The notes under the pieces are model-generated. The model saw only the letters and a program-made list of their open reading frames with translations, did no database searches and was not told where the DNA came from. From the NCBI GenBank assembly GCA_017396085.1, contig JAFQNC010000012.1:1-64000 (forward strand): DNA of 64,000 nt, given 5' to 3'. Origin of the DNA: Tidjanibacter sp. Lineage in GTDB: Bacteria > Bacteroidota > Bacteroidia > Bacteroidales > Rikenellaceae. Position 1 is the first letter of the stretch. Each line of letters opens with the position of its first letter. The translations under genes were made by a program, and so were the position numbers. Shown in pieces: positions 22,080-42,230 of this stretch.

Positions 22080-22177
22080 TAAGTCTAAATATCGTTTATC
22101 TTCTCTCACGCACACGCCCACCTCTCGGCCACACCACACACAGCGGAACATCGGCGGAGGGGCGTTGTGTTTGTTTT

Positions 22178-23970: not shown

Positions 23971-25428
23971 TTATTCAGCCGATTTGGTCTGCTCGATTTT
24001 GCCACCAAAGATGAAAATCGACAGCAACGACAGCGGTACCAATGCTGCACCCACGATGAAGAAGGGCACCCAGTTGCCACCGGCGGTGATGATGGGCACA
24101 AGCCAAGTCATAATCAGCGTGCCACACACTGCGGCAGCACCACCGATACCGGCCAAAGTACCCACGCTCTTACCAGTTTGGAGGTCGCTGGCAACGGTCT
24201 GGATGTTGGTCATCATAAACTGGTAGCCACCCAAAATCAGAGCCATCATCACAACAGCCATAATGGGCGAACTTGCCATAGCGGCCAAAATCATACCCGG
24301 AATTACCATACAGGCACCAACGCACACAGCGCACTTGCGAGCGAAGTTCACACTCTTGCCCTTCTTGATGAGCCAGCCACTAAACCAGCCACCTGCAATG
24401 GAGCCCACAGCAGCACCCACGTAGGGTACCCAAGCCGACATTGCAATCTGCTTAATATCAAGGCCAAAGACCTCAATGAGGTAAATAGGCAACCAAGTTA
24501 CGAACATCCACCAGATGGGGTCCAAGAAGAAACGACCGAGAATTACGGCGTAGTTCTTCTTCTCGCTGAAGAGGCGGCCGTAGGTCTTGCTCTTGGTGTT
24601 GTTCACCACGTTCTCGGGCTGGCCCTCAATGATGTATTTCTGCTCCTTCTCGGTAATCCAAGGGTGCTCCTTCGGGCCCTTCTTGTTGATGATGAGCCAA
24701 GGCACAACCCAAATGATACCGAGCGAGCCCACGATGATGAAGGTAATCTTCCAACCGAAGGCAATGAACAACACGGGAATCAGAATGGGAGCGATGATGC
24801 TACCTGCCGAAGCGGCTGCACCAAAGATACCCTGTGCCAAAGCACGCTCCTTCTGGGGGAACCACTCGGCATTCGACTTGGTGGTGCCGGGCCAAGGACC
24901 AGCCTCACCCAAACCGAGCATAACCCTGAAGAAGGTGAGCGATTTGAGGCCCGAGGAGAGCGATGCAAGTGCATCGGCAGCACCCCACAGCAGGGCCGAC
25001 AGAGTGAAGCCCTTGCGGGTACCAATCTTGTCGTAGACCTTGCCGGAGAAGAGTTGGCTCACTCCATAGGCAATCATAAAGAACATTGTGATGACAGCCA
25101 GCATACTCTTGGCCTGCTTCTGCTGCTCCTCTTGTGGTGCGGAGGTGTCCACAAGGCCGAGGTCTTTGGCAATACCGCCATACTTGATGTAGGTCAGCGA
25201 GCCGTTGTCGCCCAGTGTAACCTCGTCTGCTTTCAGTTCGAGCACGCCCTCTTGTGCCTGTACGAGATAGAGGTTGGTGGAATCCACAACGCTCCACTCG
25301 CCTGCGGGCACTTCCACCTTGGTGTTGGCCACCCACATATAGTTGAGCGTACCTCGGTCGAGGTAGTTGATGATGGTTACCAGCACAATCAGCGACAGTA
25401 CCACCCATCTCAATCCTTTAACTTTCAT
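23971..25428 (-). CDS. MFS transporter, hexuronate-type, with long periplasmic insert
   Basis: 485 residues with about 12 membrane helices. NYLDRGTLNYM after TM1, and GLGEAGPWPGTTKSNAEWFPQKERALAQGIF, are signatures of the ExuT/anion:cation symporter group that imports hexuronates. In alginate loci such carriers move DEH or unsaturated uronate from periplasm to cytoplasm. An insert of about 75 polar residues (33-107) lies between TM1 and TM2 and makes the protein longer than the usual 430. It has no signature I know and would face the periplasm. Downstream of kdgF and upstream of the SDR, matching the pathway order. Confidence 0.85.
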   Translation of the reverse strand: MKVKGLRWVVLSLIVLVTIINYLDRGTLNYMWVANTKVEVPAGEWSVVDSTNLYLVQAQEGVLELKADEVTLGDNGSLTYIKYGGIAKDLGLVDTSAPQEEQQKQAKSMLAVITMFFMIAYGVSQLFSGKVYDKIGTRKGFTLSALLWGAADALASLSSGLKSLTFFRVMLGLGEAGPWPGTTKSNAEWFPQKERALAQGIFGAAASAGSIIAPILIPVLFIAFGWKITFIIVGSLGIIWVVPWLIINKKGPKEHPWITEKEQKYIIEGQPENVVNNTKSKTYGRLFSEKKNYAVILGRFFLDPIWWMFVTWLPIYLIEVFGLDIKQIAMSAWVPYVGAAVGSIAGGWFSGWLIKKGKSVNFARKCAVCVGACMVIPGMILAAMASSPIMAVVMMALILGGYQFMMTNIQTVASDLQTGKSVGTLAGIGGAAAVCGTLIMTWLVPIITAGGNWVPFFIVGAALVPLSLLSIFIFGGKIEQTKSAE

Positions 25429-25856: not shown

Positions 25857-28046
25857 CTACTCAACAGCCCACACGCCGTTCCACTTGTAGGTCTTACCAC
25901 CGGCTTTCACCTTGTGGTCGCCCTCGGGGTTGCGGTTGGCAAGGCAGTAGGTGCGGCTTTGACCACCCACGAAATCAACCCTCACGATGGTGTAGTCGGC
26001 ATTATCCACAACCACCACAACATCCTTCACCGAGGATTTGGCATTGGCGGTCTTTTCCACCTGAAGGTTGTAGACACCGTGGCTCTCAATGGTCGAGGCG
26101 AAGGTGTGGTTGGTAGCCTTTTGGCGCAGCAGGTAACCACCATCGGGGCGCAGGTTGAAATCGGGGTCGTTGGCACCCAGTCGCAACATCTTCATCTCCG
26201 TGGTGGGAGTTGTTGCGGTGGAGATGCTGTAGAACCTATCGCCTTCAAGGAAGGTGTAGCAACTTGTGCTGCTCTGCTCGTTGCGGCCCTCGGCCTCCAC
26301 CCAAATGTGCTGGTAGCCATTCTTATCGCCGAGTGTAGACATTGTGGTGAGTGCCTTTGTGTAGGGGAAATTGAGGCTTACCATATGTCCATTGTACCAG
26401 AAGGGGAGGTCGTAGGTGTGCTCGGTGTCGCTCTCCAAACGGAACACATCCACAATCAGCGGATACTGCAACCACTCCACATCATCGTAAATCACCGTGC
26501 GGTGCATCTTCACACCCTTCACGGCAGCATTCTCCTTGGCCGAGATAATACTCCTCTGGTCGCCCGACTCAAAGTAGTAGACATCCGAGTGGTGCTTTGA
26601 CGACTCCTTGATTTTGCCGTCAAAGTGCGACTTACCATCAACAGTTACGGTGCTGTGGGCGATGGTCTGCATTGCAAAGCTCTTGTTCTCACGGGTGTAG
26701 TGGCCCTTGTACTTAGCCTCAATATTGAGGAACCTTGATGCGCCATAGTCGGGCAACACCACGTTGTCGTTGTCGTAGTAGGAGATGACGAGTTTGTCGT
26801 AGTGTCCGTGCGAAAGGCCGTGGGAGGTTGCCTTCAAGGTGAGTGCGCTGTTCACATCGGGGCGCACCGAGCGGATTACTCCAATACCGCCCTGCGAGCC
26901 ATCGGCACCATCGCGCCACATTGCGCTGTAGAGTTTGATGGGCTCGGCCTTACCGGCAGCAATATCACGAGCCACAGCATAGCCTGCATCGCAAGGGATA
27001 AACTTGTTTTGGTAACGCTGGGCAACGTCCAACAGCATAGGATTCTTGTAGGCATTGTAGGCGATGTCCACAGCGAACAGCAACTCCTGACAGTCAAGTT
27101 GTTTGGTCAGCGCATCGTTGAACTTCATAAACACGCCGTTGTAGTTGAGTTGCATCAGTGCCTCCACAGCCTTGGAAAGAATGGCATCGCGGTGGGCAAA
27201 AATCTTCACCTCGGGTTTGTTGTGCTCTATACACTGCGCAAAGAGCATCATAGGCCAGATGGCATAGCGTAGGTAGTAGGCACCCTCGGTGTAGTAGCCA
27301 TCGGGCGAGAGGAGGTTGTCGAGTTGCATCATAAAACCGCCATTCTTGCCCGTCTTGTCGCTACCATAGAGTGCCTGCTGGATGTACTCCTCCTCGCCCA
27401 TAACCATACCGAGCATACCCACCGAAGCAGCGGCCCAAGTACCGTGGTTGTGAATGAGGTTGAAGGTTTTGTTGTTGGCAGGGTTCTCCTTGGTGCCGTT
27501 CATCACAAAGTCGGCATAGGGGCGGAAGAAATCTCTCTCCAACTGCTCACGTTTTTCGGGCGCAATGTAGTCATACACGCAGTCGTAGGCGATGGAGGTG
27601 TGCACCAACCACACACACTCGTTGAGTGTCTGCCAGAATATCCTACCCGGGGTTTTTGACAACGTAACGGGGTGGAAGTCAAGCGAGGGGTAGAGTGCGG
27701 CATAGGCATCGAGAATATCCACCACCTTCTGCGCATACTCCTCTTTGCCGGTGAGTTGATAGGCGATGCCGCAGTAGTACATCACATAGTAGTTGTCTTT
27801 GTGTTTCTCGTGGGTGTAGCCACCGCCACCGTCTTTCGGCACGGGCACCACGATGGGCTCCTCAAACGAGCGGTCGGCCTCAGTCAGTACCTCTGCCACC
27901 GAAGCGTCAAAGCCTACATTGGTACCGAGTGCAGCACGTATCTCTGCCACGCCCTCCGGGGTAAGCAGCAGACAAGGGTGCTGTTTTTGACCAAAGGCCA
28001 AAGTTGCAACCACAAGGGTTGTCAATGTCAGGAGTAGTTTTTTCAT
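25857..28046 (-). CDS. PL17-like oligo-alginate lyase (heparinase II/III fold)
   Basis: 729 residues with a Sec signal (cleavage near LAFGQ20, no lipobox), so probably periplasmic. An alpha/alpha toroid (about 25-370) is followed by a heparinase II/III-type beta-sandwich. Residues equivalent to the PL17 catalytic set are visible: Asn200-His201 in LIHNHGTW, Tyr257/258 in EGAYYLRY, and a His in SHGLSHGHYDKL. Length matches family PL17 exolyases, which cut oligo-alginate to monomers. It follows three PL6 genes, so it would act on oligomers imported by SusC. Confidence 0.9.
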   Translation of the reverse strand: MKKLLLTLTTLVVATLAFGQKQHPCLLLTPEGVAEIRAALGTNVGFDASVAEVLTEADRSFEEPIVVPVPKDGGGGYTHEKHKDNYYVMYYCGIAYQLTGKEEYAQKVVDILDAYAALYPSLDFHPVTLSKTPGRIFWQTLNECVWLVHTSIAYDCVYDYIAPEKREQLERDFFRPYADFVMNGTKENPANNKTFNLIHNHGTWAAASVGMLGMVMGEEEYIQQALYGSDKTGKNGGFMMQLDNLLSPDGYYTEGAYYLRYAIWPMMLFAQCIEHNKPEVKIFAHRDAILSKAVEALMQLNYNGVFMKFNDALTKQLDCQELLFAVDIAYNAYKNPMLLDVAQRYQNKFIPCDAGYAVARDIAAGKAEPIKLYSAMWRDGADGSQGGIGVIRSVRPDVNSALTLKATSHGLSHGHYDKLVISYYDNDNVVLPDYGASRFLNIEAKYKGHYTRENKSFAMQTIAHSTVTVDGKSHFDGKIKESSKHHSDVYYFESGDQRSIISAKENAAVKGVKMHRTVIYDDVEWLQYPLIVDVFRLESDTEHTYDLPFWYNGHMVSLNFPYTKALTTMSTLGDKNGYQHIWVEAEGRNEQSSTSCYTFLEGDRFYSISTATTPTTEMKMLRLGANDPDFNLRPDGGYLLRQKATNHTFASTIESHGVYNLQVEKTANAKSSVKDVVVVVDNADYTIVRVDFVGGQSRTYCLANRNPEGDHKVKAGGKTYKWNGVWAVE

Positions 28047-28103: not shown

Positions 28104-30224
28104 TTACAAAGCCCTATTGGCCACGATGCGGCCCGAGTTACGCAGGGTGCAACCCCTGACCGTAATCTTCTCCCACGGAGTGTCGTCCAAACGGATGGAT
28201 GCACCTCCACGGCCACTGTCCACAAACCTACACCCCGCAATGGTGAGGTCCTGCACACCAATAGCCCTCAGTGCGCTACCACGACCTCGGTTGCACACGT
28301 TGCGGAACTCACACTCCTCAATCACCACACAGGGGCCACCGGTGCTCTCATCGCTACCACCACGGTAGATGTTCACACCCAAGCCGAGCAGATTTTCAAA
28401 CACACACCTGCGAATGGTGATGTTCTCCGCATTGTAGCGACCGATATCCTCCCTCTCGGCACCAAAGTCCACAGCATTGCCCGAGATGTCGTGGAAGTAG
28501 CAATCCTCAATCACAATGTTGTCCGAGAATGTGTTTTGGGCACCCCTGATGGCAAAATTGGTGCTCTCGCCAAAGTCGTAGAAAGCGCACCCACGCACCT
28601 CCAACAGGTAGGGCTGAATCATCCCCTCGGCGGTGGTGATGGCGTGGCGTGCCCCAGCAGTACCGATGGCGAGTTTGCCACTGAAATCAAGGCCCTGCAC
28701 CTTCAGGCTACCGCCGTCCACAATCGTAACAAGGCTTGACTTCTTGCTCCCTGCAAAACTAATCACAGGGTTGGCCTTTGCTCCCTCGGCAGCACGCAGC
28801 GTGATAGCAGCACCAACCTGCAAACCTTTGGTCAGTGGGTAGCGGCCCTCGGAGAGTACAATCACATCGCCCTCCTCGGCCTCTGCCACAGCCTTTTGCA
28901 GTTGCTCGGCACCTGCCACCTCCACGGTGCGGCCATTCTCCACAGCCACCTTCGGCTCGGCCACATACCAGCCTGCTCCCCTACCCTTACGCATTGCCTC
29001 AACATCAACAGCGGGGCACTCCACGGAGCCATTGGTAAAGCCCTTCAAGTAGACCTTGCGGCCCAGTTCTACGGTGTTGTTGCGGAAAGTAAACCCGCTG
29101 GTGCGGTCAATGGCCATAAAGGGAGCCACAAGTTCCTTATTCTTAATCTGATTGCCCTCAAACAAGATGCGCTCGGGCGCCAACGTGCGTTCCTCATCGC
29201 AACCCGTGCCAAACTCAATGTTGGCGCAGTCGATGAAGGTATTGTTCACAATCTCAACATTTTCCACCAAGCAGTAGCGGTTGGGCAGCGAGTTGGGCAC
29301 AGCGTTCATCAGTGCCAAAGCCGAGAAAAACCTCTCGCCACGCACGCCCACAAAGGTGTTGCCAACAACCTTGTGGCCCGCATTAACCACCCTCACACCG
29401 CCGGTGTGTTTCACTCCGTTACCCATAAAAACATTGCCCTCAGCCACATTCCTATCGCCGTGGCGCAGAGCCAACACACCCTGACACTCCCAGAAGAGGT
29501 TGCGGCGCACGATGTTGTCGCTCGATTTGATGGACACAACCTCCACCTCGCCATTGCAGTGGTCAAACACGTTGTCCTCAATGACCACCTGCGAAGAGGT
29601 GTAGGCGTGTTGCGAAGCACCCACACGGATGGTTTCGGCCCCATTGGAGCCAAACAGGTGACGATTGGCAAAGAGGTTGTGGTCGATGCGGTGTGCGCAC
29701 CCTGCGCTGTTGTCGTGATTGAGGTTTACGCCCACGAGCAGGCCACGGTTGAGTTTGCCGGTTTGGGTGTTGTGGTCGTACCTATTGGCACGCCCCGCAA
29801 TAATCACATCATCATAGAAATCGTTGCGCTGTGCGGGGTTGTAGTCCTCAATCACACACTCGGTCATCCTACACTCCTCGGCATACTCCTTGCCTTTGCG
29901 GAACTCCACGATGGCTCCCTCGGGCGAATAACCACCCTTGAAGTGGAGGCCACACACGGTCAGTCCACGCCCCACAATGCGCAGGTTGGAGGCTCCGGTG
30001 ATAACCACGCCGCCCTCGCTCTCGGGCACAACCACGATGGGTTGCTCGGCCGTGGCAGCACCCTTCCACACGAGCCTTACATCACTATAAGTACCATTGG
30101 CAACCACGATGGTGTCGCCACCTTTGGCAGCGGCCACCTTGTCGGCCACCTTCTCAATATTCACGGGTCCGCCACAAGCCACAAGCCCGATGGCCAACAC
30201 CAAGAGTGTAAACTGTTTCTTCAT
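28104..30224 (-). CDS. Two-domain PL6 alginate lyase (lipoprotein)
   Basis: 706 residues with lipobox Cys17. It has two parallel beta-helix domains: an N-terminal chondroitinase-B-like domain (about 20-400), then a second beta-helix (about 420-706), as in long PL6 enzymes such as AlyGC. Catalytic Lys233 (VVSIKSSDN) and Arg254 (LALRHGDRN) are present; these correspond to the Lys base and Arg acid of PL6. Upstream conserved blocks NGAETIRVG and NVFDHCNGEVEVV are also typical. It is the third of three PL6 genes in transcription order. The membrane anchor suggests surface or periplasmic-face action. Confidence 0.92.
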   Translation of the reverse strand: MKKQFTLLVLAIGLVACGGPVNIEKVADKVAAAKGGDTIVVANGTYSDVRLVWKGAATAEQPIVVVPESEGGVVITGASNLRIVGRGLTVCGLHFKGGYSPEGAIVEFRKGKEYAEECRMTECVIEDYNPAQRNDFYDDVIIAGRANRYDHNTQTGKLNRGLLVGVNLNHDNSAGCAHRIDHNLFANRHLFGSNGAETIRVGASQHAYTSSQVVIEDNVFDHCNGEVEVVSIKSSDNIVRRNLFWECQGVLALRHGDRNVAEGNVFMGNGVKHTGGVRVVNAGHKVVGNTFVGVRGERFFSALALMNAVPNSLPNRYCLVENVEIVNNTFIDCANIEFGTGCDEERTLAPERILFEGNQIKNKELVAPFMAIDRTSGFTFRNNTVELGRKVYLKGFTNGSVECPAVDVEAMRKGRGAGWYVAEPKVAVENGRTVEVAGAEQLQKAVAEAEEGDVIVLSEGRYPLTKGLQVGAAITLRAAEGAKANPVISFAGSKKSSLVTIVDGGSLKVQGLDFSGKLAIGTAGARHAITTAEGMIQPYLLEVRGCAFYDFGESTNFAIRGAQNTFSDNIVIEDCYFHDISGNAVDFGAEREDIGRYNAENITIRRCVFENLLGLGVNIYRGGSDESTGGPCVVIEECEFRNVCNRGRGSALRAIGVQDLTIAGCRFVDSGRGGASIRLDDTPWEKITVRGCTLRNSGRIVANRAL

Positions 30225-30249: not shown

Positions 30250-31761
30250 CTACTTAATTTTCCAACTCACACCACAATTCTTCGCCGAGGGGAGGTCCAC
30301 TTTGAGTTTGCCCATAATCTCCACGGCACCCGATGTGGTTTGTGCTCCACGGGGCTGACCGAGCAGGTCCTTGTCAATGCCCTCCACAGCGGCAACCCTA
30401 TTCTTATCAAGAAAACTCTTCTTCAGAGGGCCAACTACGCCCTTTACCTCGCGCACCAAAGGATTGACCTCCTCGGCACCAAACTCCTCGGCAGTGAGGC
30501 CCTTCACCTTACCGCCCCAAAGCACGTTGCCACCATAGCGCATATCGGTTGGGGGCTCGGGTTTGAGGCCCACCTTCACATTCTCCACCTTTTTGTCCTC
30601 GGAGAGATTGACAACCACGTTATTCACAATATCGTTATCCTTGATTGCCAACTTGTTGCGTTTGCCCGTGTGGTTAATATTGAAGCCCATCTGGCAGTTG
30701 TAAATCGTGTTGTGCGCCACCAAGCAATGGTCGGCAGCGAAGTAGCCATTGAGGGCCGAGTCGGGCTCGCCCTGAATTAGCGAAATGGCCGCATAGTAGC
30801 CCCTACCGGTGAGGTTCATCAGCAGGTTGTTGTAGACCTTGTGGCCCACACCAATGAGCCTGATACCGCCCGTGCTGGTTGCAATGCCCTCATAGAGGCC
30901 ACCGCCGCCACTCTTGCCTGCGCCATCGAACACATTGCCCTCCACGGTGCAGTAGTCGCCGTGGCGAAGAGTGAGTGTACCCAAGCACTCACGGAAGAGG
31001 TTGCCACGGTAGGTATTGCGGCACGACTTGTTGGAGATAATCTCCACCTCGCCATTGCACTCATAGAAGTAGTTACCCTCCACCAAGCAGCCGCCATCCT
31101 GCATAGAGAAGTGGCTGGTGCCGATACGGATGGTCTCTTGTCCGTTCTTTGAGCCACCATCCTCGCCCAGCAGACTACGTGGGCGGGTAAAGTAGTTATT
31201 CCTGATGGTGTGGGCGGGCACAACCCCCTCACGAAACCACACCACCAAGGTGGTGCCCATATTGGCCTTGTCCAATAGCGAGCAACCCTCCACGGTGTTG
31301 CCACTGCCATAGAGCGACACCCATTTGAAGTCGGTGGGGTCCATAGGAGCACCAATGGCCGTTATGGCACAATCTCGGAGGGTGCAGTTGTAGGCCTCCT
31401 GCTCGGATGAGGTGCGCATAGCCACAACCTCGCCCTTGATACCTGCGATGTCCTTGAACCAAAGGCCGCTGACCACAATCCACTCGCCACTGAAACCAAA
31501 CTTCGAGGCACCCGTGAAGACGGTCTGTCCCTTCTCCTCGGCCACAATGTGGATGGGTGCCTGCTCGGTACCCACGGCGTGGATTTTTACCACTTGGTCC
31601 CTCCACTCGCCCGCTTTGAGCACAAGCGTATCTCCCGCAGAAAGTTGCACCTTCTTAATCTCCGCAGCCGAAGCGGCCTCCACTCTGCGTGCCTCTGCTG
31701 TGGGTACAAAGCCCACAATCAAACCTGCGGTCAGAGCCACGATTGCAGCAAACTTTTTCAT
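30250..31761 (-). CDS. Single-domain PL6 alginate lyase (secreted)
   Basis: 503 residues with a Sec signal that has no lipobox (MKKFAAIVALTAGLIVGFVPTAEA), so unlike its two neighbours it is likely soluble in the periplasm. It is a one-domain beta-helix PL6 enzyme. NGQETIRIGTS, Lys245 (IISNKSCRN) and Arg266 (LTLRHGDYC) are intact. A Gly-rich insertion (DGAGKSGGGGLYEG) follows. It lies 25 nt upstream of the two-domain PL6 gene. Different localisation implies division of labour with the two lipoprotein PL6 enzymes. Confidence 0.92.
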   Translation of the reverse strand: MKKFAAIVALTAGLIVGFVPTAEARRVEAASAAEIKKVQLSAGDTLVLKAGEWRDQVVKIHAVGTEQAPIHIVAEEKGQTVFTGASKFGFSGEWIVVSGLWFKDIAGIKGEVVAMRTSSEQEAYNCTLRDCAITAIGAPMDPTDFKWVSLYGSGNTVEGCSLLDKANMGTTLVVWFREGVVPAHTIRNNYFTRPRSLLGEDGGSKNGQETIRIGTSHFSMQDGGCLVEGNYFYECNGEVEIISNKSCRNTYRGNLFRECLGTLTLRHGDYCTVEGNVFDGAGKSGGGGLYEGIATSTGGIRLIGVGHKVYNNLLMNLTGRGYYAAISLIQGEPDSALNGYFAADHCLVAHNTIYNCQMGFNINHTGKRNKLAIKDNDIVNNVVVNLSEDKKVENVKVGLKPEPPTDMRYGGNVLWGGKVKGLTAEEFGAEEVNPLVREVKGVVGPLKKSFLDKNRVAAVEGIDKDLLGQPRGAQTTSGAVEIMGKLKVDLPSAKNCGVSWKIK

Positions 31762-31798: not shown

Positions 31799-33331
31799 TC
31801 AGTCCATATTTATATCTATTTTTTTTATCTCACTTTTCCATTTTGGGCCGCACTCACTCTCAACCTTTGCCACCGCCGCCGTAACGGAGCCGATTGAGGG
31901 GGCTGCGGAGAGGGTTGCCAGACTAACTCCGTTTTGCTTACCCCCATAGATTTTGTTGCCACTCCAAGTGATGGTCGGTGCAGGCGATGTGTAGAGGTAG
32001 ACTGCATAGTCGCCACCGGAGGTGCAATAGATTGTGTTGTCGGCGATGGTGCTCTCAATCACGGGCATTGTCATCCCATCTTTGCCGTAGTTCACGTGCA
32101 ACGAGTAGCGACAGCCAACGATGGTGTTATTCCTCACAACGGCACCCTTCACCTGTGCATAGCCGCTTAGGGCGGCGTTGGGCTCTCCTCTCACGAGGCA
32201 GATGGCGGTTTTGTAGCCACTGCCACGCAGTTTTTCCAAATAGTTGTTCTCCACTCGGTGCCCTTCGCCAATGATGCGCACACCTCCTGTGTTGGAACGG
32301 CCCTCGCCCAGAAACCAGTTGCCCCTTACGATGCAATCGTTGCCGTGGCGAAGTGTGAGCACCCCTTCCGAAGCCCTGAAAAGGTTGCCCTCGTATGTGT
32401 TGCCGCACGACTTGTTGGACACAATCTCCGTCTCGGCATTACACTCGTGGAAAACATTTCCACGCACCACACACTCGGCCCTGTTGAGCGAGTAGTCGCT
32501 CGTTCCGATGCGTATGGTCTCTTGTCCGTTGGTCCCATTGTCAATGGAGTAGGGACGCGAAAAGTAGTTACCCTCGATGGTGTGGCGGGGCACAACCCCA
32601 CTCTCCATCCACACAACCAACAGCGCACCCATATTGCGTTTGTCGGCAAAGTAACAATTCCGTATGGTGTGGTCGCTACCATAGAGCGACACCCATTTGT
32701 AGTCTTTTGAGTTTTCGGCTGTGCCGAAACCCGTTATGGCACACTCGCTCACCACAATGTGGGAGGAGCCGCCGGAGAGCGTGAGAGGTGTTTTTGAGGG
32801 GTCTTTCCACCAGAGGTTTTTCACCTCCACATAGCGGCCACCCACCTTGAGTTGGCTGCTGCCGGTGAATACCACCTCTCCTCCCCTCTCGCCTGTGAGT
32901 ACAATCGGCTTTGAGGCTGTTCCAGTGGCCGAAAGGCTTATGCTCACATTGGAGTAGGTACCACTGCGCCAAACGATTGTGTCGCCCGCCACAATGGTGA
33001 GTTTTTCCAAATCCTCCACCGAGGCTACCCACTTCACCTTTGCCGAATAGGTCGGCTCGGAGGGCGTATCGCTCGGATTGGAGGGCGTGGTTGGTGTGTC
33101 GGTGGGTGTATCGGGGTCGGTGGGCGTATCGCTCGGTGAGGAAGGCTTATCCGTTGGCTCCTCGGGCTTATCCGTTGGCTCCTCGGGCTCTTCGTTGGGC
33201 TCGGAGGGTTTTTGGGTGTTCTCACTCCCCTCCTCCTTCTGCACCGGCTCGGGAATGACAAAATCGACACCCGTGCAACCGCCCAAAGCGAGCAGTGCCA
33301 CCAATGCCAATATTGCAAAATCTCTTCTCAT
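31799..33331 (-). CDS. PL6 alginate lyase with long Pro/Glu/Thr linker (lipoprotein)
   Basis: 510 residues from ATG 33331, which opens the signal MRRDFAILALVALLALGGC (lipobox Cys19). A GTG eight codons earlier is an alternative. Residues 31-93 are a low-complexity linker rich in Pro, Thr, Ser, Glu and Asp, including EEPTDK repeats. The PL6 beta-helix follows (about 97-510), with NGQETIRIGTS, Lys307 (IVSNKSCGN) and Arg328 (LTLRHGNDC). The lipid anchor plus flexible spacer suggests a cell-surface endolyase. It is the first enzyme gene after the binding-protein genes, and an intercistronic hairpin separates the two groups. Confidence 0.92.
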   Translation of the reverse strand: MRRDFAILALVALLALGGCTGVDFVIPEPVQKEEGSENTQKPSEPNEEPEEPTDKPEEPTDKPSSPSDTPTDPDTPTDTPTTPSNPSDTPSEPTYSAKVKWVASVEDLEKLTIVAGDTIVWRSGTYSNVSISLSATGTASKPIVLTGERGGEVVFTGSSQLKVGGRYVEVKNLWWKDPSKTPLTLSGGSSHIVVSECAITGFGTAENSKDYKWVSLYGSDHTIRNCYFADKRNMGALLVVWMESGVVPRHTIEGNYFSRPYSIDNGTNGQETIRIGTSDYSLNRAECVVRGNVFHECNAETEIVSNKSCGNTYEGNLFRASEGVLTLRHGNDCIVRGNWFLGEGRSNTGGVRIIGEGHRVENNYLEKLRGSGYKTAICLVRGEPNAALSGYAQVKGAVVRNNTIVGCRYSLHVNYGKDGMTMPVIESTIADNTIYCTSGGDYAVYLYTSPAPTITWSGNKIYGGKQNGVSLATLSAAPSIGSVTAAVAKVESECGPKWKSEIKKIDINMD

Positions 33332-33371
33332 TCCCTCTGTGCGCTTATTTCCCACTCATTTTATGTGGCAA

Positions 33372-33440: not shown

Positions 33441-35378
33441 CTAATTCAGAGGTTTAGACCAATATACATCCATAGTAATAGTGGATGTCTTCGGCAGGTT
33501 GCTGGCCGAAGTAGGCTCGGGATTTATAGACTTAACATAGATGAAGCCTGTGTTGCGAACACCACTTGCGGGCAGGCTCTTCAACTGACCATACTCATAG
33601 GTTACATACTGTACCAACAGCACCGAACCAACAGTAAAGTTATTGTTGGCAGGATTTTCAAGCACAAACTTGGGAGCACCCGAAGAGGCCCTCTTGTCGG
33701 GCAACTCATCGGTGAGCGAGGTGATGTCGTTGGTCTTCACCTTCTGTTCCCAAGCCTGCTCGCTCTCGGTTGCTCCGCTATAACCCAAGTTGCGATAAGC
33801 CACGATAGGTGTACCCAGTATTGACTGACCATCAACCACATCCGTACCATCCTCCTTCTTCATATTCTTCAACTGACTGGTGGAGTTGGTGGGGCAGATG
33901 AATGCCATACTACTACCGCTTGTAGCGAAGATGTAGGGTTTCACGGAGTAGTACTGCTCCTCGGTAAGTTTGGTCTTATCCAAAACATTCGCTGTGCTAT
34001 TAACTCCTGCGTAGGGGTCGCTCCACTGCTCGGCCGAGATAATGCCACCCATATCGGGCACGAAGAAGGCCTTGTCGTGGTTGCTCTTGTCGCCCACACC
34101 CAAAACAACATCTTTCCAGTAGTAGAAGGGATAGACGGTAACCTTGCCGAAGTCCACGGGGTTGGCACCGTTGTAGAGAGCGGTGAGAGCAACCTCTTTG
34201 GCTGCGGTGAAGTTCACTCCATCGGGCACGATGAACTGCACCTCGGTGTCGCTACCACCCTCAACGAGTGTGGCTGCCACGCCGTCCACCTCAAAGCCCT
34301 CAATGCTGATGAGGTTTTGGCCCTTGACGGTAACCACCTTCTTCAGGTAGAGGCGGTTGTCGGCGCCACCATCCTCGGCAGTGAGCGAAGTGAACACAGG
34401 TTTGGCAGGACCCACAGGAGTGGTATCCACCTTGTAGTTCTCGGCCAAAGTGTAGGTCTGCACGGGGGCACCCCACTCTGCCACAATGTTTGCGCTCTGC
34501 ACCACGGGGTCAGCCTGCTCAATGCTGCTGGGAGTTTTGAGCACAAGTTTGGTTGCGCTCTGCTCCACGAGTACCATCTCGTGGGCACCCCAAGTGGTCT
34601 TGGTGATAAGGTCGAGGTTTTCGCCACTGAAACTTACCTCATCGCCAATCTTGGCGCTCTGGTCGGCACCCTGAGCGGCATCAATGGTTGCCTTGGGGGT
34701 CTTCATTGTGAAGGTGCTCTCCTCGCCGGTTACGGCCAAAGTACCACCTGCCCACTCGGCAGTGATAGCGATGGTGCTGTTGCCTGCCTCGTAGGTACCC
34801 ACGGGAACGACAAACTTCACTGCATCGGCAGCGAGTGTGAGAGCCTCGCCCTCCAACTTCACGCCACCAAAACTTACGGAAGTAATCTGCTCCAAGTTGC
34901 GGCCCTTGATGGTAATCTCGGTGCCGATGGTACCCTCTGCGGGAGTGAAACCACCCACGATAGCGTCAGTTACGGGCACAGTGAGGTAGAAGTTAGCACG
35001 ATAGATGGTGTCCAACTTGTTGTCGTCAAGAATGTAGAGCATCGAGTAGTGGGGGTTGTCCTGCTGGGCAAAACCCACATCGGGCACCTTGAAGGTCATC
35101 TGACGGATGGTCTTCTCCACGATTTCGGCCTCGGTCTTATTGATGAGCACCTTTGCCACGTGGTCGAGATTTTGGCCCGCTACCACCACCTCATCGCCTA
35201 CAAATACCCTCTTGGTACCGCTTTCATCGGTCTCGGGGGTAACTGTCTGCACGGCGGCAACGTGGGTAGGATGTTTACCTGCCTCCACCTGCTCGGAAAA
35301 ATCGGTGTCGGCGCAGGCGACCATTGCTGTAGCCATCAGTGCGGCTACAAATATTGAAATTATTGTCTGTTTTTTCAT
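33441..35378 (-). CDS. Multi-TIG surface glycan-binding lipoprotein
   Basis: 645 residues with a lipoprotein signal (MKKQTIISIFVAALMATAMVAC). Four TIG/IPT-like immunoglobulin folds can be traced at about 45-130, 140-225, 230-320 and 330-420, each with a G-x-x-L/I-x-x-I/V strand pattern (DEVVVAGQNLDHV, TEITIKGRNLEQI, DEVSFSGENLDLI, KVVTVKGQNLISI). The last 225 residues, from VYPFYYWKDVVLGVG to TMDVYWSKPLN, resemble the C-terminus of the gene at 17964. Tandem Ig folds with a distal binding domain are typical of SusE/F-position proteins, so alginate binding at the surface is inferred. Confidence 0.8.
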   Translation of the reverse strand: MKKQTIISIFVAALMATAMVACADTDFSEQVEAGKHPTHVAAVQTVTPETDESGTKRVFVGDEVVVAGQNLDHVAKVLINKTEAEIVEKTIRQMTFKVPDVGFAQQDNPHYSMLYILDDNKLDTIYRANFYLTVPVTDAIVGGFTPAEGTIGTEITIKGRNLEQITSVSFGGVKLEGEALTLAADAVKFVVPVGTYEAGNSTIAITAEWAGGTLAVTGEESTFTMKTPKATIDAAQGADQSAKIGDEVSFSGENLDLITKTTWGAHEMVLVEQSATKLVLKTPSSIEQADPVVQSANIVAEWGAPVQTYTLAENYKVDTTPVGPAKPVFTSLTAEDGGADNRLYLKKVVTVKGQNLISIEGFEVDGVAATLVEGGSDTEVQFIVPDGVNFTAAKEVALTALYNGANPVDFGKVTVYPFYYWKDVVLGVGDKSNHDKAFFVPDMGGIISAEQWSDPYAGVNSTANVLDKTKLTEEQYYSVKPYIFATSGSSMAFICPTNSTSQLKNMKKEDGTDVVDGQSILGTPIVAYRNLGYSGATESEQAWEQKVKTNDITSLTDELPDKRASSGAPKFVLENPANNNFTVGSVLLVQYVTYEYGQLKSLPASGVRNTGFIYVKSINPEPTSASNLPKTSTITMDVYWSKPLN

Positions 35379-35404: not shown

Positions 35405-37099
35405 TTAAAGTTTAGAGTAGTCGTAGTCGTACTTCTGCCAGTAGCAGTTGAAGGTGATGTCGCTCGATGAGGGAGCGAGGGTGTTGTTGTACAAGCGGAA
35501 GTTCACCTTGGTGATGTGTACAAAACCGAGGCGTTTAACGTTCTCTGCAAAGTTGGTTTTGCTGGGGCTACCATTGTGGTTGTAGTACATCACCATAATA
35601 ACGATATCATCCTCCACGGTCACAACATTGGTGTTGAAAGCGGAAGGAATGGTGTACTGCGGACACCAATCTTTGCTCTGCAAACCACCGCTTGCCGAGG
35701 TAACACCCACACCTGCAATGGTCTGTGCAGTCACGTCAATCGGGAAGTCCTGCTCGTTGATAACCTCAATCTTCTTGCCCACAACCTTGTCGATGATAGC
35801 CTTCTCATCGGCGTTGGCGGGATTCAGATAGCGATAGCGCAGTACGGGAGTACCATAGACGTTACCATTGACACCGGGGCAACGATAGTCATTGGCCGAG
35901 TTGTTCTCAAAGTAGAAGTTCTTGAGCTGACCGGTGGAGTTGGCAGGACCGTTGATTTGGAGGTGGCCTGCGCTCACACCCGAGAAGAAGAAGTAGGGAT
36001 TAACCGAGTTGTAGTCTGCCTCGCTAACTGCGGGTTTGTTGGCTTCCGAGCAGGTGTTAGCCAAATTTGCATAACTAACAGGGTCTACCTCGGTACGCCA
36101 AGCGGAGTTGTGGTAGACACGACCGGTCTCGGGCGAGAAGAAGCTTGCCATCTCCTCAACATCGCGGCCTTGGCCATAGACCTTCATACCCTCCCAATAC
36201 TTAACCATAGGAACAAAGGCGATGAAGTTCTCTGTCAGAGTCTGGCTCTCGTGGCCATCGAAGTAGTAGATGACCACATTGGTGGTGTTGTCGCCATCCA
36301 CAAACTCGCCTGCGGGCACTGCAAACTGCAACGAGGTCTCGGTGCGGTTGCCAATGACAGCCTCGTGGCCACCAACGGTAATCTTCTCAATCTTGTGGAT
36401 GTTCTCACCCTCCAACACCACAGCACTACCAACAGCGGTGCGCTCGAAGGTCTTGGTGCTCACCGAAGGTACATACCTCACGATGCCAATCGAAGGAGCC
36501 GAAGCGAGGTCGGTGGAGGCCACCTTCTCGCCATCGTTGTAGGTCAAGGTGATTTTGGCCGTTACGTCTTCCACATAGGGGACCTTCACGAGCAACTCGG
36601 TATTGTTGCGGGTGCGGATTGTACCGGCGTGGCCCTCGTGGCCCTCGGCAGTGAACAGCACCTCTTGAACTGCATTGAGGTTCCTGCCCGCAATGAGCAA
36701 CATACCACCCATCTCGGCATCCTTTGCCAAAGCCGAAGCAATCACTTCGGGCACAGCGTAGGTGCAAGTGAACACCTCATCGGTGGTGAAATCGCCATAG
36801 GGGTTCTCCACCCTAATCTTGCCCGAGGTAGCCTCGGCCGACACGGTGAAGGAGAATTGGCTATCCGACACACGCTCATAGAGGGGTACCTCGGTGGTGC
36901 CGATATAGACCTTGGTTACGCCATTGAGGTACTTACCGGTTACGGTAATAACATCGCCAGCCGAGCCGGATGTGGGCGCAAAACTCTCCACCTCCGGAGC
37001 ATTCAGCACAGGCTCCTCAACATAAATCTGTTCGTTACAAGCCAGACCAATAACAGTCATAGCCAGCAACATAGCATATCTAAAAAGTTTGTTTTTCAT
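35405..37099 (-). CDS. TIG-domain surface glycan-binding lipoprotein
   Basis: 564 residues with lipoprotein signal (LLAMTVIGLAC). A clear first TIG domain (VESFAPTSGSAGDVITVTGKYLNGVTKVYIG) is followed by two more divergent Ig-like repeats (GMLLIAGRNLNAVQEVLF; SAVVLEGENIHKIEKITVGG). The C-terminal 250 residues (VPMVKYWEGMKVYGQGRDVEEM to ITFNCYWQKYD) are a diverged copy of the C-terminal module of the two other binding proteins in this locus. It directly follows susD, 18 nt away, the place of SusE-type binding proteins. The ligand is presumed to be alginate. Confidence 0.8.
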   Translation of the reverse strand: MKNKLFRYAMLLAMTVIGLACNEQIYVEEPVLNAPEVESFAPTSGSAGDVITVTGKYLNGVTKVYIGTTEVPLYERVSDSQFSFTVSAEATSGKIRVENPYGDFTTDEVFTCTYAVPEVIASALAKDAEMGGMLLIAGRNLNAVQEVLFTAEGHEGHAGTIRTRNNTELLVKVPYVEDVTAKITLTYNDGEKVASTDLASAPSIGIVRYVPSVSTKTFERTAVGSAVVLEGENIHKIEKITVGGHEAVIGNRTETSLQFAVPAGEFVDGDNTTNVVIYYFDGHESQTLTENFIAFVPMVKYWEGMKVYGQGRDVEEMASFFSPETGRVYHNSAWRTEVDPVSYANLANTCSEANKPAVSEADYNSVNPYFFFSGVSAGHLQINGPANSTGQLKNFYFENNSANDYRCPGVNGNVYGTPVLRYRYLNPANADEKAIIDKVVGKKIEVINEQDFPIDVTAQTIAGVGVTSASGGLQSKDWCPQYTIPSAFNTNVVTVEDDIVIMVMYYNHNGSPSKTNFAENVKRLGFVHITKVNFRLYNNTLAPSSSDITFNCYWQKYDYDYSKL

Positions 37100-37117: not shown

Positions 37118-38641
37118 TTAGTAACCAACATTTTGTGCCACATCGGGGTTGATGTCCTTGACCGACTGCGGAATGGGCAGGCGGAGTTGCCAATCCTCAA
37201 TGGGGTTGATAACATAGGAGTAGGTTGCGTAGTAGTCGGCATCCTTCACTGCAAACGAGTCGTTGATGGTCTCGGTGGCGATACCCCAACGCAGCAGGTC
37301 AAAGAAGCGGTGGTTCTCAAATGCCAACTCAAGCCTACGCTCGGCACGAACAGCCTCCCTGAAAAGGTACTTCGAGCCAACCTCGGCCAAAGTGAGCGCA
37401 GGGATACCTGCCCTCTGGCGGGTGATGTTCAGGTAGCCCAAAGCCTTCTCGCTGGGGCCCTGCAACTCGTTGAGCAACTCGGCATAGAGCAGCACCACAT
37501 CGCCAACACGGATGATGGGCCAATCGCTCTCGCCATCGTAGTTCACCGTTACGGGCGACATAAACTTGTTCACATAGCGGCAAGTACCGGTATCTACCCA
37601 CACGCCCGTTTGTGCGTTCCAGTAACGCTCCTTCAGGCTCACATCCTTACGCAGGTCGCCCTCGTTGGCGTTGAATGCGTTGATGATGTCGTTGGAGGGG
37701 TAGTTGTTGGAGTTGGCATTACCTGCAATCACGTTTGCACCGTTGTTGATGGGAGCAAAGTAGTTGCCGAAGGGCGAGCCGAGGCCCTTGTTGCCCGACA
37801 TATAGCGGCAAGTGAAGATAATCTCATCGTTCATCTCGTTCTCAATGCTGAACACCTTGTCGAAAGGCACCAAGTCGCTACCGCTGGTGGGGTTACCAAC
37901 CCATTCGATAACGTCCTCAAGCAGGTCGGCAGCAGCGGCATACTTCTCATCGCCAAGTTGGTAGTGGGTCATATAAACCTTTGCCAACAGCGAAGCAGCA
38001 GCCACGCGGGTGGCCCTACCGGTCTGGTCCGAAGCATATTTCACGGGCAGAGCCTCCGAAGCCAAGATGGCCTCCAAATCGCCCTCTATGAGTGCGTAGA
38101 CATCCTCCACGGGGCTACGCTGCATATAGCGAGCCTCATCGGCACCGGTGGTCTTGGTTACGAGGAACACAGGACCCCACAGGCGCACCAAGTTGAAGTA
38201 GAAGTGGGCACGCAGGAATTTGGCCTCGGCCTCAAACTGTGCACTCAGAGCCTCATCGTCAGCCACACCGAGTTTCTCCAACACGAGGTTGCAACGGGCA
38301 ATACCCGCATAGGAGCTATCCCAGTAGCTGTTTACATACTCGCTCGCCGAAGGAATGTTACCTTGGTCGAGGTATTCAAGAGCTTTGGTGGTGTTGGATG
38401 TGGAGCCCGCACCATAAAGACGTGTGTTGTCGGTACGCAACTCCGTAACAGCCCACTCATATTGGAGCACGCCCTGCATTGCGTTGTAGCAACCCAGAAC
38501 GGTCGAATTGAGAGCCGCAGTCGATGTGATGTAGGCATCGGCACTCACCTCGCTCTCGGGATAGCTATCCAGCAAATCCTCGCACGAGCACAGGAGTGTC
38601 ATTGCGGCCAAAATGGAGATATAGTATTTAATGTTTTTCAT
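37118..38641 (-). CDS. SusD/RagB-family lipoprotein
   Basis: 507 residues with lipobox Cys20. It is a typical SusD fold: N-terminal SusD-like segment (DLLDSYPESEVSADAY, AALNSTVLGCYNAMQG), TPR-like helices, and the C-terminal RagB block (RERYWNAQTG-like region, LLYAELLNEL, LNITRQRAGIPAL, LFREAVRAERRLELAFENHRFFDLLRWG). It forms the lid on the SusC porin and captures oligosaccharide. It lies 20 nt after susC. Length is normal and nothing is missing. Confidence 0.95.
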   Translation of the reverse strand: MKNIKYYISILAAMTLLCSCEDLLDSYPESEVSADAYITSTAALNSTVLGCYNAMQGVLQYEWAVTELRTDNTRLYGAGSTSNTTKALEYLDQGNIPSASEYVNSYWDSSYAGIARCNLVLEKLGVADDEALSAQFEAEAKFLRAHFYFNLVRLWGPVFLVTKTTGADEARYMQRSPVEDVYALIEGDLEAILASEALPVKYASDQTGRATRVAAASLLAKVYMTHYQLGDEKYAAAADLLEDVIEWVGNPTSGSDLVPFDKVFSIENEMNDEIIFTCRYMSGNKGLGSPFGNYFAPINNGANVIAGNANSNNYPSNDIINAFNANEGDLRKDVSLKERYWNAQTGVWVDTGTCRYVNKFMSPVTVNYDGESDWPIIRVGDVVLLYAELLNELQGPSEKALGYLNITRQRAGIPALTLAEVGSKYLFREAVRAERRLELAFENHRFFDLLRWGIATETINDSFAVKDADYYATYSYVINPIEDWQLRLPIPQSVKDINPDVAQNVGY

Positions 38642-38661: not shown

Positions 38662-41600
38662 TTAGAAATTAACATCCACACCGAAGGTAACAGTGCTGGT
38701 CAGGGGGAATCCACCTCGCTGGTAGCCACTAATCAGAGGCGAAGAGTAGTTGGAGGAGGTGTAGCGAGCCTCGGGGTTGATACCCTTATAGTCATCGCTC
38801 CACCAGTAGAAGAGGTTGTTGCCCGAAGCGTAAACCCTCAAGCCCCTCAAACCAAGGCTCTTGGCCACCTTCTTGGGCAGCGTGTAGCCAAAGGTTACGT
38901 TGCGCAAGCAGAAGTAGGAGCCATCCTGCAAAGGATAGTCGGTCAGCAGCAAGTCGATACCCTTCTTCTGGTAGGGAATCATACCGCTACCGGGGTGGCT
39001 CTCGCTCACCCAGCGGTCTTTGATGTAGGCCTTGTTCCATTTGTGGGTCTCGTTGTAATAGACATCACCGTTGAACACCGTGATGCCCTGCACGCCCTGC
39101 AAGAGGAACGAAAGGTCGAAATCACCCATCTTGAAGGTGTTGGTCATACCCCAAGTGAAATCGGGATAGGGGTCGCCAAGCACCTGATAGTCATCGGGAG
39201 TGATGTTGCCATCACCGCTCTTGTCCTCAATCCTCAAACCACCGGGAACATCCGAAGAGTTGTGGGGATTGGCCGCAATCTCCTCAGTGGAGTTCCACAC
39301 ACCGATGGTCTTGTAGCCGTAGTACTGAATCAGCGGACCGCCAACGATGGCGATGTAGCTCTCGTTACGCTCGCCGTGGCTGATGGCCTGTTTCTCGCCA
39401 CCATACTCAAGCAGGCGGTTGCGGTTGAGCGAGAGGTTGAACGAAGTGTCCCAAGTGAAGTTACGCTGATTGATGTTGCGAGTCTCAAGCAGCACTTCAA
39501 GACCTTTGTTGCGCACCTTACCGATGTTGTTCCAGTTGTACTTGAAGCCTGTGAAAGACTGGGTGGGCTGCTCCAAAAGCAGTGCACGGGTGGTCGAGTA
39601 GTAGGCATCCACGCTCAGGCTGATGCGGTTGTCAAACACGCTAACATCCAAACCCACGTTGTACTCATCGGTCTGCTCCCAAGTTACCAGCGGGTTAGCC
39701 AGTGTGGACTTGGTGATAGCCGAGCCCGAAGAGAGCGAGCCATTACCGGTGCCGAGGATGTAGTTGGCCTGCGACATCATATTCTGGGTTGCATTATAGT
39801 CGATGTCGTTGTTACCGGTAACACCATAACTACCACGCAATTTCAGGTTCGAGAGCCACCAAACGGTTTTGAGGAATTCCTCCTCCGAAGCCCTCCAACC
39901 AAGCGACACCGAGGGGAACCAAGCGTTGCGGTGGCCACGAGTGAAGAGCGAACTGCGGTCCAAACGAGTCGAAACCGATGCGAGGTAACGCTCATCGTAG
40001 TTCCAAGTTACACGACCAAGGAACGAAGAGAGGAGGCGTTTGGGATATTTGAAGGTACCGGTGCCGTCAATATCAAACATTGTGGCGGCATTCAGCGTGT
40101 GGATGTCATCGGTGGCAAAGCCCGAGCCGAGCATATCCACATTGTCCACGCGGGTGCTTTGGAGAGTGTAGCCTGCCAGCACGTCAAACGAGTGTGCACC
40201 TGCCTTGAAGGCATAGTTCAGGGTGTTCTCGGTCAGCAGGTCCATATAGAGCGAGTTGCCATAGTAGCCGGTGGCGTCAATGTTGTCCTTCACAGCATCC
40301 TTATTATAATAGTAGTAGGAAGGAGCAAAGCGCACGTTGTAGCCATTGGAGGTCTTGAACACAAGGTTCTTCAAAATCTCATACTGGAAGTAGAAACTAC
40401 CCACGCTCTGGAACGACTCCCTCGAGCGGAATGTGTTCTCCATAACCTTGCGGGGGTTGTTGTTGGCCGAGCTGAAGGGGTTTGATTTGTCCCAAGTGGG
40501 GTTGCCCATCTCGTCAGGAGCACCGGTAGGAGTCTGCACATTATTAAAGTGGCTACCACGAGCATAGCCGCTATAACCGGTCAGTGCGGTGGACCACTCG
40601 TTGTGGTACAGAGGCAGGAACGAAGGGGTACGATAGAAATCAATGTAGTTGCTGTAGGGACGTGTTGCGTAGGTGTAGGTCAGCGACACGTTGGTACCGA
40701 ACTCTGCACGAGCCGAGAGTTTGGTGTTGAGTTTTGAGCGGAAGTTGAACTTCTGCACCTCATTCTGCAACATAATACCTTGGTCTGACGAGAGCGAAGC
40801 CGAAGTGTAGTAGCGAGTTTGGTCCTTACCGCCCGAAATGTTGAACTGGATGTTGCTGGTCTTTGCGGGATTACGCAGAGCCAAACGCTGCCAATCGGTG
40901 TAGCCCATATTCTCCTCCAACCAAGCAGCCGCGCGAATCTGTGCCGTAACGGCAGGGCCACCAATACTCTCCTCCCACTGGGCGAGTTGGAGTGCCTCAT
41001 CAGAGTTGAGCAGGCTGTGGAGCTGGTAGGCATACTTGAAGCCACTGAAAGCCTTAACGGTGTAGCGGGGAGCGTTGGCTGCGCCCTCCTTGGTGGTAAT
41101 CAGAATCACACCATTTGCAGCCCTTGAACCATAGATGGCAGCCGAAGCAGCATCTTTCAGCACCTCAATGCTCTTGATGTCCGACTGGTTAATCATCGAA
41201 AGACCGTCTGCCACAGGGTAGCCGTCAATCACAACCAGAGGGCTTGAACTTGCACTGATGGAGCCGATACCACGCACACGAATCTGCGGAGCCACACCAA
41301 TCTCGGAGGTGTTGTTGTTGATGGTAACACCGGGGAGTTGTCCCTGCAATGCGGTGGTAACATCGGTGGTGGGGGTGTCAATAAACCTGTCGCCCTCCAC
41401 ACGGGAAATTGAGCCGGTCAGGTGCGATTTCTGTTGCACACCATAACCAATCACCACAACCTCATCCGCAACAACAACACCCGCATCCATTGCCACATTG
41501 ATGGTCGTGCGACCCTCAATGGGAATAACCACGGTCTTGTAGCCGATGTAGGAGAAGTTCAAACTGGCCGAACTGTTGGCCTTGATGGAGTAGGAGCCAT

Positions 41601-41778
41601 CGACACCGGTGATGACGCCGTTGAGCTCATCGCCTTCGACAACTACGGAAACTCCAATGAGAGGCTCACCTCCTCCGGTAACCACACCTTTGATGGTCTT
41701 TTGTTGTGCAAAAACGCCAACAGACATCAAAAGCGAAATTACGAGAAATAGAGCCTTGGTTAGGGTAGTTTTTCTCAT
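38662..41778 (-). CDS. SusC/RagA TonB-dependent transporter
   Basis: 1038 residues from ATG 41778 (MRKTTLTKALFLVISLLMSVGVFAQQ signal); an extension of 22 residues upstream lies inside the leader region and is rejected. Carboxypeptidase-regulatory-like domain at about 28-105 (IKGVVTGGGEPLIGVSVVVEGDELNGVITGVDG is its core), plug domain with TTALQGQLPGVTI and GSRAANGVILITTKEG, then a 22-strand barrel. It imports oligo-alginate across the outer membrane, paired with SusD. It is the first gene of the alginate operon and follows a predicted promoter with a triple operator. Confidence 0.96.
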   Translation of the reverse strand: MRKTTLTKALFLVISLLMSVGVFAQQKTIKGVVTGGGEPLIGVSVVVEGDELNGVITGVDGSYSIKANSSASLNFSYIGYKTVVIPIEGRTTINVAMDAGVVVADEVVVIGYGVQQKSHLTGSISRVEGDRFIDTPTTDVTTALQGQLPGVTINNNTSEIGVAPQIRVRGIGSISASSSPLVVIDGYPVADGLSMINQSDIKSIEVLKDAASAAIYGSRAANGVILITTKEGAANAPRYTVKAFSGFKYAYQLHSLLNSDEALQLAQWEESIGGPAVTAQIRAAAWLEENMGYTDWQRLALRNPAKTSNIQFNISGGKDQTRYYTSASLSSDQGIMLQNEVQKFNFRSKLNTKLSARAEFGTNVSLTYTYATRPYSNYIDFYRTPSFLPLYHNEWSTALTGYSGYARGSHFNNVQTPTGAPDEMGNPTWDKSNPFSSANNNPRKVMENTFRSRESFQSVGSFYFQYEILKNLVFKTSNGYNVRFAPSYYYYNKDAVKDNIDATGYYGNSLYMDLLTENTLNYAFKAGAHSFDVLAGYTLQSTRVDNVDMLGSGFATDDIHTLNAATMFDIDGTGTFKYPKRLLSSFLGRVTWNYDERYLASVSTRLDRSSLFTRGHRNAWFPSVSLGWRASEEEFLKTVWWLSNLKLRGSYGVTGNNDIDYNATQNMMSQANYILGTGNGSLSSGSAITKSTLANPLVTWEQTDEYNVGLDVSVFDNRISLSVDAYYSTTRALLLEQPTQSFTGFKYNWNNIGKVRNKGLEVLLETRNINQRNFTWDTSFNLSLNRNRLLEYGGEKQAISHGERNESYIAIVGGPLIQYYGYKTIGVWNSTEEIAANPHNSSDVPGGLRIEDKSGDGNITPDDYQVLGDPYPDFTWGMTNTFKMGDFDLSFLLQGVQGITVFNGDVYYNETHKWNKAYIKDRWVSESHPGSGMIPYQKKGIDLLLTDYPLQDGSYFCLRNVTFGYTLPKKVAKSLGLRGLRVYASGNNLFYWWSDDYKGINPEARYTSSNYSSPLISGYQRGGFPLTSTVTFGVDVNF

Positions 41779-41858
41779 AAGTTTATAAATTTGGTTAGTT
41801 AAGTAAGTTGCTTTCAACGCGCACGTGGGGCACATCTCTTCCAAGATTGCCCAAAAAT

Positions 41859-41894
41859 TGGTAAACCACTTTGGTTAGCCAGATTGGTAAACCA
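41859..41894. promoter_or_regulatory. Triple TGGT-N2-RCCA operator array
   Basis: TGGTAAACCA at 41859-41868, TGGTTAGCCA at 41872-41881 and TGGTAAACCA at 41885-41894 start exactly 13 bp apart. Each is a palindrome (the middle one with one mismatch). The array begins about 7 nt after the predicted susC transcription start, a roadblock position for a repressor such as the local GntR protein. Confidence 0.65.
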
Positions 41895-41905
41895 ATTCTC
41901 AAAGG

Positions 41906-41936
41906 CAAATTTAGGAATAATTTGGAGAGTTCCAAA
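41906..41936 (-). promoter_or_regulatory. Promoter of the alginate operon (susC)
   Basis: On the minus strand, TTTG (41933-41936) and TAAATTTG (41906-41913) are separated by 19 bp. The leader to ATG 41778 is about 120 nt and holds the operator array. Confidence 0.8.
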
Positions 41937-42013
41937 CATTTTTGAAATTTTTTGTTTTACACTGAAATACAACCACTTACAGCCCAATTTGACCGAAAAA
42001 GAGAAGAAAATAA

Positions 42014-42030
42014 TTGGTTGAAAATTGGTC
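42014..42030. promoter_or_regulatory. Distal TTGGT pair resembling the gntR-promoter site
   Basis: TTGGTTGAAAATTGGTC matches 17912-17928 (TTGGTCAAAAATTGGTC) in 15 of 17 positions, including the 11-bp spacing of the two TTGGT half-sites. It lies about 100 bp upstream of the susC promoter and may be a second regulator site. Confidence 0.45.
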
Positions 42031-42095
42031 TTATCACCAGACTCTATGTGCGAATTTTCCGCCACCATTATACCCATTTTGCCATCTTCGGGCAC

Positions 42096-42146
42096 AAAAA
42101 AAGCAGGTGGTGCGCACCGTTTCCGTCTGCACACCACCTGCTTTTT
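42096..42146. terminator. Bidirectional terminator-like hairpin upstream of the alginate operon
   Basis: AAGCAGGTGGTG (42101-42112) pairs with CACCACCTGCTT (42132-42143). There is a T5 tail on the plus strand and a T7 tail on the minus strand. It ends the M23/LysM-ddl-DUF3109 unit, whose last gene stops at 42231. Confidence 0.8.
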
Positions 42147-42230
42147 GCGTGGCAACTCTACCCTATTTTCATCGTAGTCTTATGACCACTCTCTAATTAT
42201 TCTCCTTGATTTTTCGCTCCAATTAACCCT

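Follow-up and report, generated by a model that had tools for sequence, protein, structure and literature searches.

The locus analysed here lies in the window, i.e. the whole 64-kb stretch of Tidjanibacter DNA under study, and forms a block on the - strand that runs, in order, through susC, susD, TIG-domain genes, PL6/PL17 lyases, an MFS transporter, an SDR reductase, lyase-like genes, gntR, and an esterase gene (Table 1). The start codon of susC was placed at ATG 41778 on the - strand, and not at the TTG 41844 selected by the ORF finder. The top NCBIfam match of the PL17-type gene product is oligoalginate lyase, under its cut-off, and the SDR reductase is 84-87% identical to most of its Alistipes counterparts. 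The GntR protein matches Pfam GntR (44.4 bits) and FCD (86 bits), both above cut-off, and is the sole FCD match in the genome. Residues D150, H154, H198, and H220 of its FCD domain, which we take to be the metal ligands of the pocket, are invariant in 14 aligned proteins; arginines 41, 51, and 55 and the PQSGT wing, presumably the DNA contacts, are invariant across the Rikenellaceae and flavobacterial regulators aligned.

Table 1. Genes, promoters, and putative regulatory elements of the alginate locus (positions refer to the window).
Feature	Position	Strand	Evidence or remark
susC promoter, sigma-ABfr type, TTTG-N19-TAAATTTG	41906-41936	-	TTTG 41936-41933, 19 bp spacer, TAAATTTG 41913-41906; N19 layout kept in G086 and G083
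Putative operator copy 1, promoter-proximal	41885-41894	-	TGGTTTACCA on coding strand, TGGTAAACCA on + strand; arms kept in G086 and G083
Putative operator copy 2, middle	41872-41881	-	TGGCTAACCA on coding strand, TGGTTAGCCA on + strand; one arm mismatch
Putative operator copy 3	41859-41868	-	TGGTTTACCA on coding strand, TGGTAAACCA on + strand
ACCAAT-N5-ACCAAT, second copy	42013-42029	-	repeat search; ~100 bp upstream of susC -7 box
susC, TonB-dependent transporter, first locus gene	38662-41778	-	Pfam Plug, CarbopepD_reg_2
susD	37118-38641	-	Pfam SusD_RagB
Two TIG-domain surface lipoprotein-like genes	35405-37099, 33441-35378	-	syntenic in Alistipes
Three PL6-type lyase genes	31799-33355, 30250-31761, 28104-30224	-	Pfam Chondroitinas_B
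PL17-type oligoalginate lyase	25857-28046	-	Pfam Alginate_lyase and Hepar_II_III_C
MFS transporter	23971-25428	-	syntenic in Alistipes
SDR reductase, possible DEH reductase	23161-23913	-	syntenic in Alistipes
Two polysaccharide-lyase-like genes and TIG gene	22178-23161, 20247-22151, 17964-20030	-	weak Pfam matches
gntR promoter, TTTG-N20-TAACTTTG	17889-17920	-	promoter search of locus gaps
ACCAAT-N5-ACCAAT over -33 box of gntR promoter	17911-17927	-	possible autoregulatory site
GntR/FCD repressor, inferred array reader	17097-17819	-	Pfam GntR and FCD

Only two full promoters of the TTTG/TAnnTTTG type were found in the 11 locus gaps examined, those of susC and gntR. The susC promoter matches the Bacteroides consensus, with TTTG and TAnnTTTG at -33 and -7 (PMC7366714), which predicts a transcription start at about 41899-41902. 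The earlier note had described three palindromes at strict 13-bp intervals directly after this promoter; its sequences and coordinates are right, the start-to-start step being exactly 13 bp and the first copy lying 11 bases past the -7 box. The array reads TTGGTTTACCAATCTGGCTAACCAAAGTGGTTTACCAAT on the coding (-) strand, occupies 41859-41936 together with the promoter, and would span roughly +5 to +42 relative to the predicted start. Copies 1 and 3 are perfect TGGT-N2-ACCA palindromes and the middle copy has a single arm mismatch.

Base composition predicts such a triple about 3e-8 times in 64 kb, counting both strands, and no 13-bp triple arose when the 452-bp intergenic gap was put through 20,000 dinucleotide shuffles (any three palindromes: 1 of 20,000); on these numbers a chance origin of the triple is excluded. 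Lone copies of TGGTNNACCA are unremarkable in the 64-kb window (3 observed versus 1.4 expected), and the significance of the array is in its clustering and phasing, not in single palindromes. The genome-wide motif search that the earlier note had proposed counted 29 occurrences of TTGGTNNACCA over the two strands of the 2 Mb genome and 19 of the reversed control; of eleven single palindromes inspected as candidate sites just one (C16:99584) was promoter-like, and without context they are uninformative.

Two close Tidjanibacter genomes, G086 and G083, whose susC is 99% and 92% identical to that of the window, retain all three copies, the 13-bp steps, and the distance to the promoter. Among the three sequences the palindrome arms show at most one difference in 24 positions, whereas pairwise matches amount to 4/6, 2/6, and 1/6 in the centres and to 91/104, 62/104, and 63/104 in the flanks (in comparisons against G083, 1-2 of 6 centre positions and ~60% of the flanks). 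Copy 3, for example, is TGGTTTACCA in the window, TGGTAGACCA in G086 (same arms, altered centre), and TGGTTAACCA in G083. Constant arms with drifting centres are the signature of a protein-binding palindrome whose centre is not read.

Two structures flank the array and promoter. Just past the array, the susC leader holds a hairpin (41828-41852, - strand) whose pairing is kept in G083 despite many differences, the 5' arm GGGCAAUCUU becoming GGCAUAUUCU; the changes are apparently compensatory, and the hairpin matched no Rfam family at gathering score. On the other side, between a LysM/M23 peptidase gene and susC, a strong inverted repeat with T/A-rich ends (42093-42151) is probably the terminator of the upstream gene, and was not among the calls of a simple terminator scan.

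Beyond Tidjanibacter, Alistipes-like genomes with the same alginate cluster carry a two- or three-copy 13-bp array ahead of susC. Their clusters also contain a single TTGGT-N2-ACCAA, with promoters on both sides, between divergent esterase and lyase genes adjoining gntR. A search of 268 Rikenellaceae genomes for the 13-bp pair matched 13 genomes, versus 0 for the reversed-pattern control. Allowing spacings of 10-34 bp in the same 268 genomes gave 16 pairs, 14 of them spaced by 13 or 26 bp; each 26-bp pair contains a recognisable copy in between, and two-copy arrays are also spaced by exactly 13. The GntR gene is present in all 10 array genomes among the 200 tested, versus 25 of the 200 overall (p ~1.5e-10, a value that ignores kinship, as relatives are not phylogenetically independent), and two further array genomes beyond the 200 encode it as well. 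The exception among array genomes is G214, whose match lies away from any promoter; this match and that of G773, which falls inside a susC-like gene, were discarded for want of a preceding promoter. No array was found near the close GntR relative of seven Alistipes-like genomes (G054, G100, G127, G151, G159, G187, and G192); either the regulator also exists without such an operator, or these genomes lack the alginate locus or have it in another place.

The Rikenellaceae triples vary in their details. In most of them the middle copy has its defect at one and the same position, the T on the inner side of the upstream arm (TGGC or TGGA), although the replacing base differs between lineages. One susC promoter (L123, G122:C8:36282) has, besides one perfect and two degenerate copies downstream of the -7 box, a further palindrome, TTGGTTAACCAA, upstream of that box.

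At the level of the phylum, perfect pairs were found in 9 of 395 genomes with a pattern itself fixed at 13-bp spacing, and 8 of the 9 matches belong to one family, taken as flavobacterial, each genome carrying between one and five arrays of two or three copies. The flavobacterial arrays inspected precede PL6, PL17, susC, or SDR genes, and all 8 flavobacterial genomes with a promoter array encode a GntR homologue (35-38% identical) on the same contig. In these arrays the TG of the first copy belongs to the -7 box as well (TAnnTTTGGT), which puts the offset at -2, whereas it is +11 at Tidjanibacter susC and +12 to +15 bases past TAnnTTTG in most Alistipes-like genomes. This shift of the array in Rikenellaceae, off the -7 box and to its downstream side, appears to be new. 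An order-level search matched 3 genomes versus 1 for the control: in G383, a bacteroidal genome from a different family, the match is a real promoter array of the -2 layout ahead of a PL17 gene, and the matches in G409 and G271, in neither of which a GntR relative was detected, look incidental. A second perfect three-copy 13-bp array, also of the flavobacterial -2 layout, was observed in G086 (L079, G086:C110:16832-16867), where the gene that follows is a relative of the lyase-like and TIG genes at 20247-22151 and 17964-20030 of the window.

Taken together, conservation, spacing, and co-occurrence with the regulator support the proposal of the earlier note that the array is an operator for the FCD GntR protein of the locus, and we put the probability that it is the three-copy operator of an AusR-like alginate repressor at about 0.87. 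Counting against this reading are the GntR-bearing relatives near whose regulator no array was found, the lack of a palindrome at the promoter of gntR, the imperfect middle copy, and the kinship of the genomes compared. As described in papers that cite it, AusR of Zobellia is a GntR-family protein that represses alginate genes via single, double, or triple operator copies (PMC7874173, PMC8286568). By these descriptions, AusR of Z. galactanivorans and the regulator of the window are both GntR-family proteins within an alginate locus, and alginate breakdown products relieve repression by AusR, as is proposed here for the GntR protein. In the window gntR lies inside an alginate locus with PL6, PL17, SusCD, SDR, and MFS genes, with a triple at susC and singles and doubles in relatives. 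The motif also occurs in flavobacterial genomes with alginate genes, the likeness to AusR being one of regulator family, locus, and operator copy number, as described in the citing papers. The hosts differ, AusR being from a marine flavobacterium and the window from gut Rikenellaceae, and so does the layout: in the flavobacterial genomes searched, two bases of the first copy fall within the -7 box, whereas in the window the first copy starts 11 bases past it. Since multi-copy operators have been described for AusR, at least in those accounts, the array of the window belongs to a known kind, found in a gut lineage and shifted in position.

The boxes themselves agree in part with what the earlier note had called a typical FCD half-site arrangement. 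TGGT and ACCA conform to the FadR-subfamily boxes, but the 2-bp gap is that of the UxuR/GntR-type minority, 3 bp being commoner (PMC4494728). Operators of the UxuR/GntR type consist of a TKGT/ACMA palindrome with 2 bp between GT and AC (PMC4494728), as do the copies in the window; they are described as having weaker flanking half-sites 7-12 nt from the centre, in place of tandem full palindromes at 13 bp.

The gntR promoter itself contains no such palindrome, only direct repeats of the half-site. Its ACCAAT-N5-ACCAAT, in which the operator half-site is repeated directly at 11 bp, is kept in four Tidjanibacter genomes and absent near Alistipes-like gntR. Only three perfect occurrences exist in the genome, the third (C9:97550) lying inside or near a susC-like gene; the one upstream of susC is identical in G086 and partly retained in G083. 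The repeat might be bound by the same regulator in a second mode, or else be the site of another factor.

We infer binding, repression, and ligand from the arrangement of the locus as follows. Without alginate, one repressor dimer would occupy each TGGT-N2-ACCA palindrome, and, from their position at about +5 to +42, the bound dimers would obstruct clearance of the susC promoter or the early phase of elongation and thereby keep the long susC-to-lyase block off; in flavobacteria, the -7 box itself would lie under the first dimer. Basal lyases would free unsaturated uronates, and a breakdown product, with DEH or KDG as the likely ligand of the FCD metal pocket, would release the repressor. The 13-bp step would pack the dimers side by side, probably giving a steeper and tighter switch than one copy.

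How the copies would act together is a separate question. The 13-bp step corresponds to about 1.24 turns, placing neighbouring dimers ~44 angstroms apart and rotated by ~85 degrees; the earlier note had remarked that such phasing would turn them relative to each other and may allow a cooperative filament. A comparison is offered by E. coli NanR, three FCD dimers of which pack closely and cooperatively on one (GGTATA)3 operator by means of a 32-residue N-terminal extension (PMC8012715). Both NanR and the regulator of the window are FCD GntR repressors of a sugar-acid pathway with three closely spaced repeats, and NanR is the best NCBIfam subfamily match of the latter, far below cut-off. NanR, however, reads direct GGTATA repeats and not palindromes at 13 bp, and its extension is absent from the GntR protein of the window, whose winged helix begins at residue 16 and whose homologues also have a short N terminus; any dimer contact would therefore need another surface.

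The exact spacing argues for dimer-dimer contact. Tentatively, with the odds somewhat against it, the phylum-wide 13-bp lattice may reflect a cooperative GntR/FCD stack without a NanR-like arm, in which the middle site is deliberately weakened and which in Rikenellaceae has slid from the -7 box past the start, turning occlusion into a block of clearance or elongation. The same regulator may equally bind the copies independently, or just the two perfect outer ones may matter, copy number raising occupancy without dimer contact; we hold this, too, to be possible and short of an even chance. It would accord with the lack of the NanR-like extension, with the single copies present in the same regulon, and with a middle copy that is imperfect in 11 of 13 Rikenellaceae triples, although an imperfect middle copy would fit a site held by its neighbours as well as a dispensable one. 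Against independent binding, two-copy arrays are also at exactly 13 bp in both Rikenellaceae and flavobacteria (a spacing preset in the flavobacterial search), and a recognisable copy stands inside each 26-bp pair; independence does not need so fixed a step.

That the palindromes are read by a transcription factor other than the FCD GntR protein is improbable: the regulator count covered the FCD proteins, which leaves a factor of another GntR subfamily some room, but the genome has one FCD protein only, the TKGT/ACMA boxes are the FadR-subfamily consensus (PMC4494728), and arrays co-occur with the GntR gene and the locus across Rikenellaceae and flavobacteria. It is still more doubtful that the element works as RNA, with copies 1 and 3 pairing in a 5'-leader hairpin that controls susC expression. 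Tidjanibacter leaders do fold better than shuffles (z -3.5 to -5.2), scores partly owed to the second hairpin just downstream, but pairing of palindromic copies follows by construction, Alistipes-like leaders are no better than shuffles (z -0.9 to +0.2), and in flavobacteria the overlap with the -7 box leaves the first copy almost untranscribed. Activation is known for some GntR/FCD proteins, but a role of the array in activation rather than repression is scarcely credible, as the sites of promoter arrays lie on or downstream of the -7 box, a position unsuited to an activator, and AusR, as described, is a repressor.

With a GntR/FCD repressor as the preferred reader of the array, what appears new relative to AusR, as known from the citing papers' descriptions, is the occurrence in a gut lineage, the shifted position, and a 13-bp lattice kept strictly throughout the phylum. 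GntR repressors in Bacteroidota polysaccharide loci are far less studied than hybrid two-component or SusR-like regulators, and the multi-copy operator principle of AusR, known from marine flavobacteria, would here be extended to Rikenellaceae of the gut. TGGT-N2-ACCA recurring in 13-bp steps, either on TAnnTTTG or past it, may serve as a simple DNA signature for alginate loci and their regulons, and the compact natural series, with one, two, or three copies placed either across the -7 box or beyond it, would suit the study of how switch sharpness depends on operator number and spacing.
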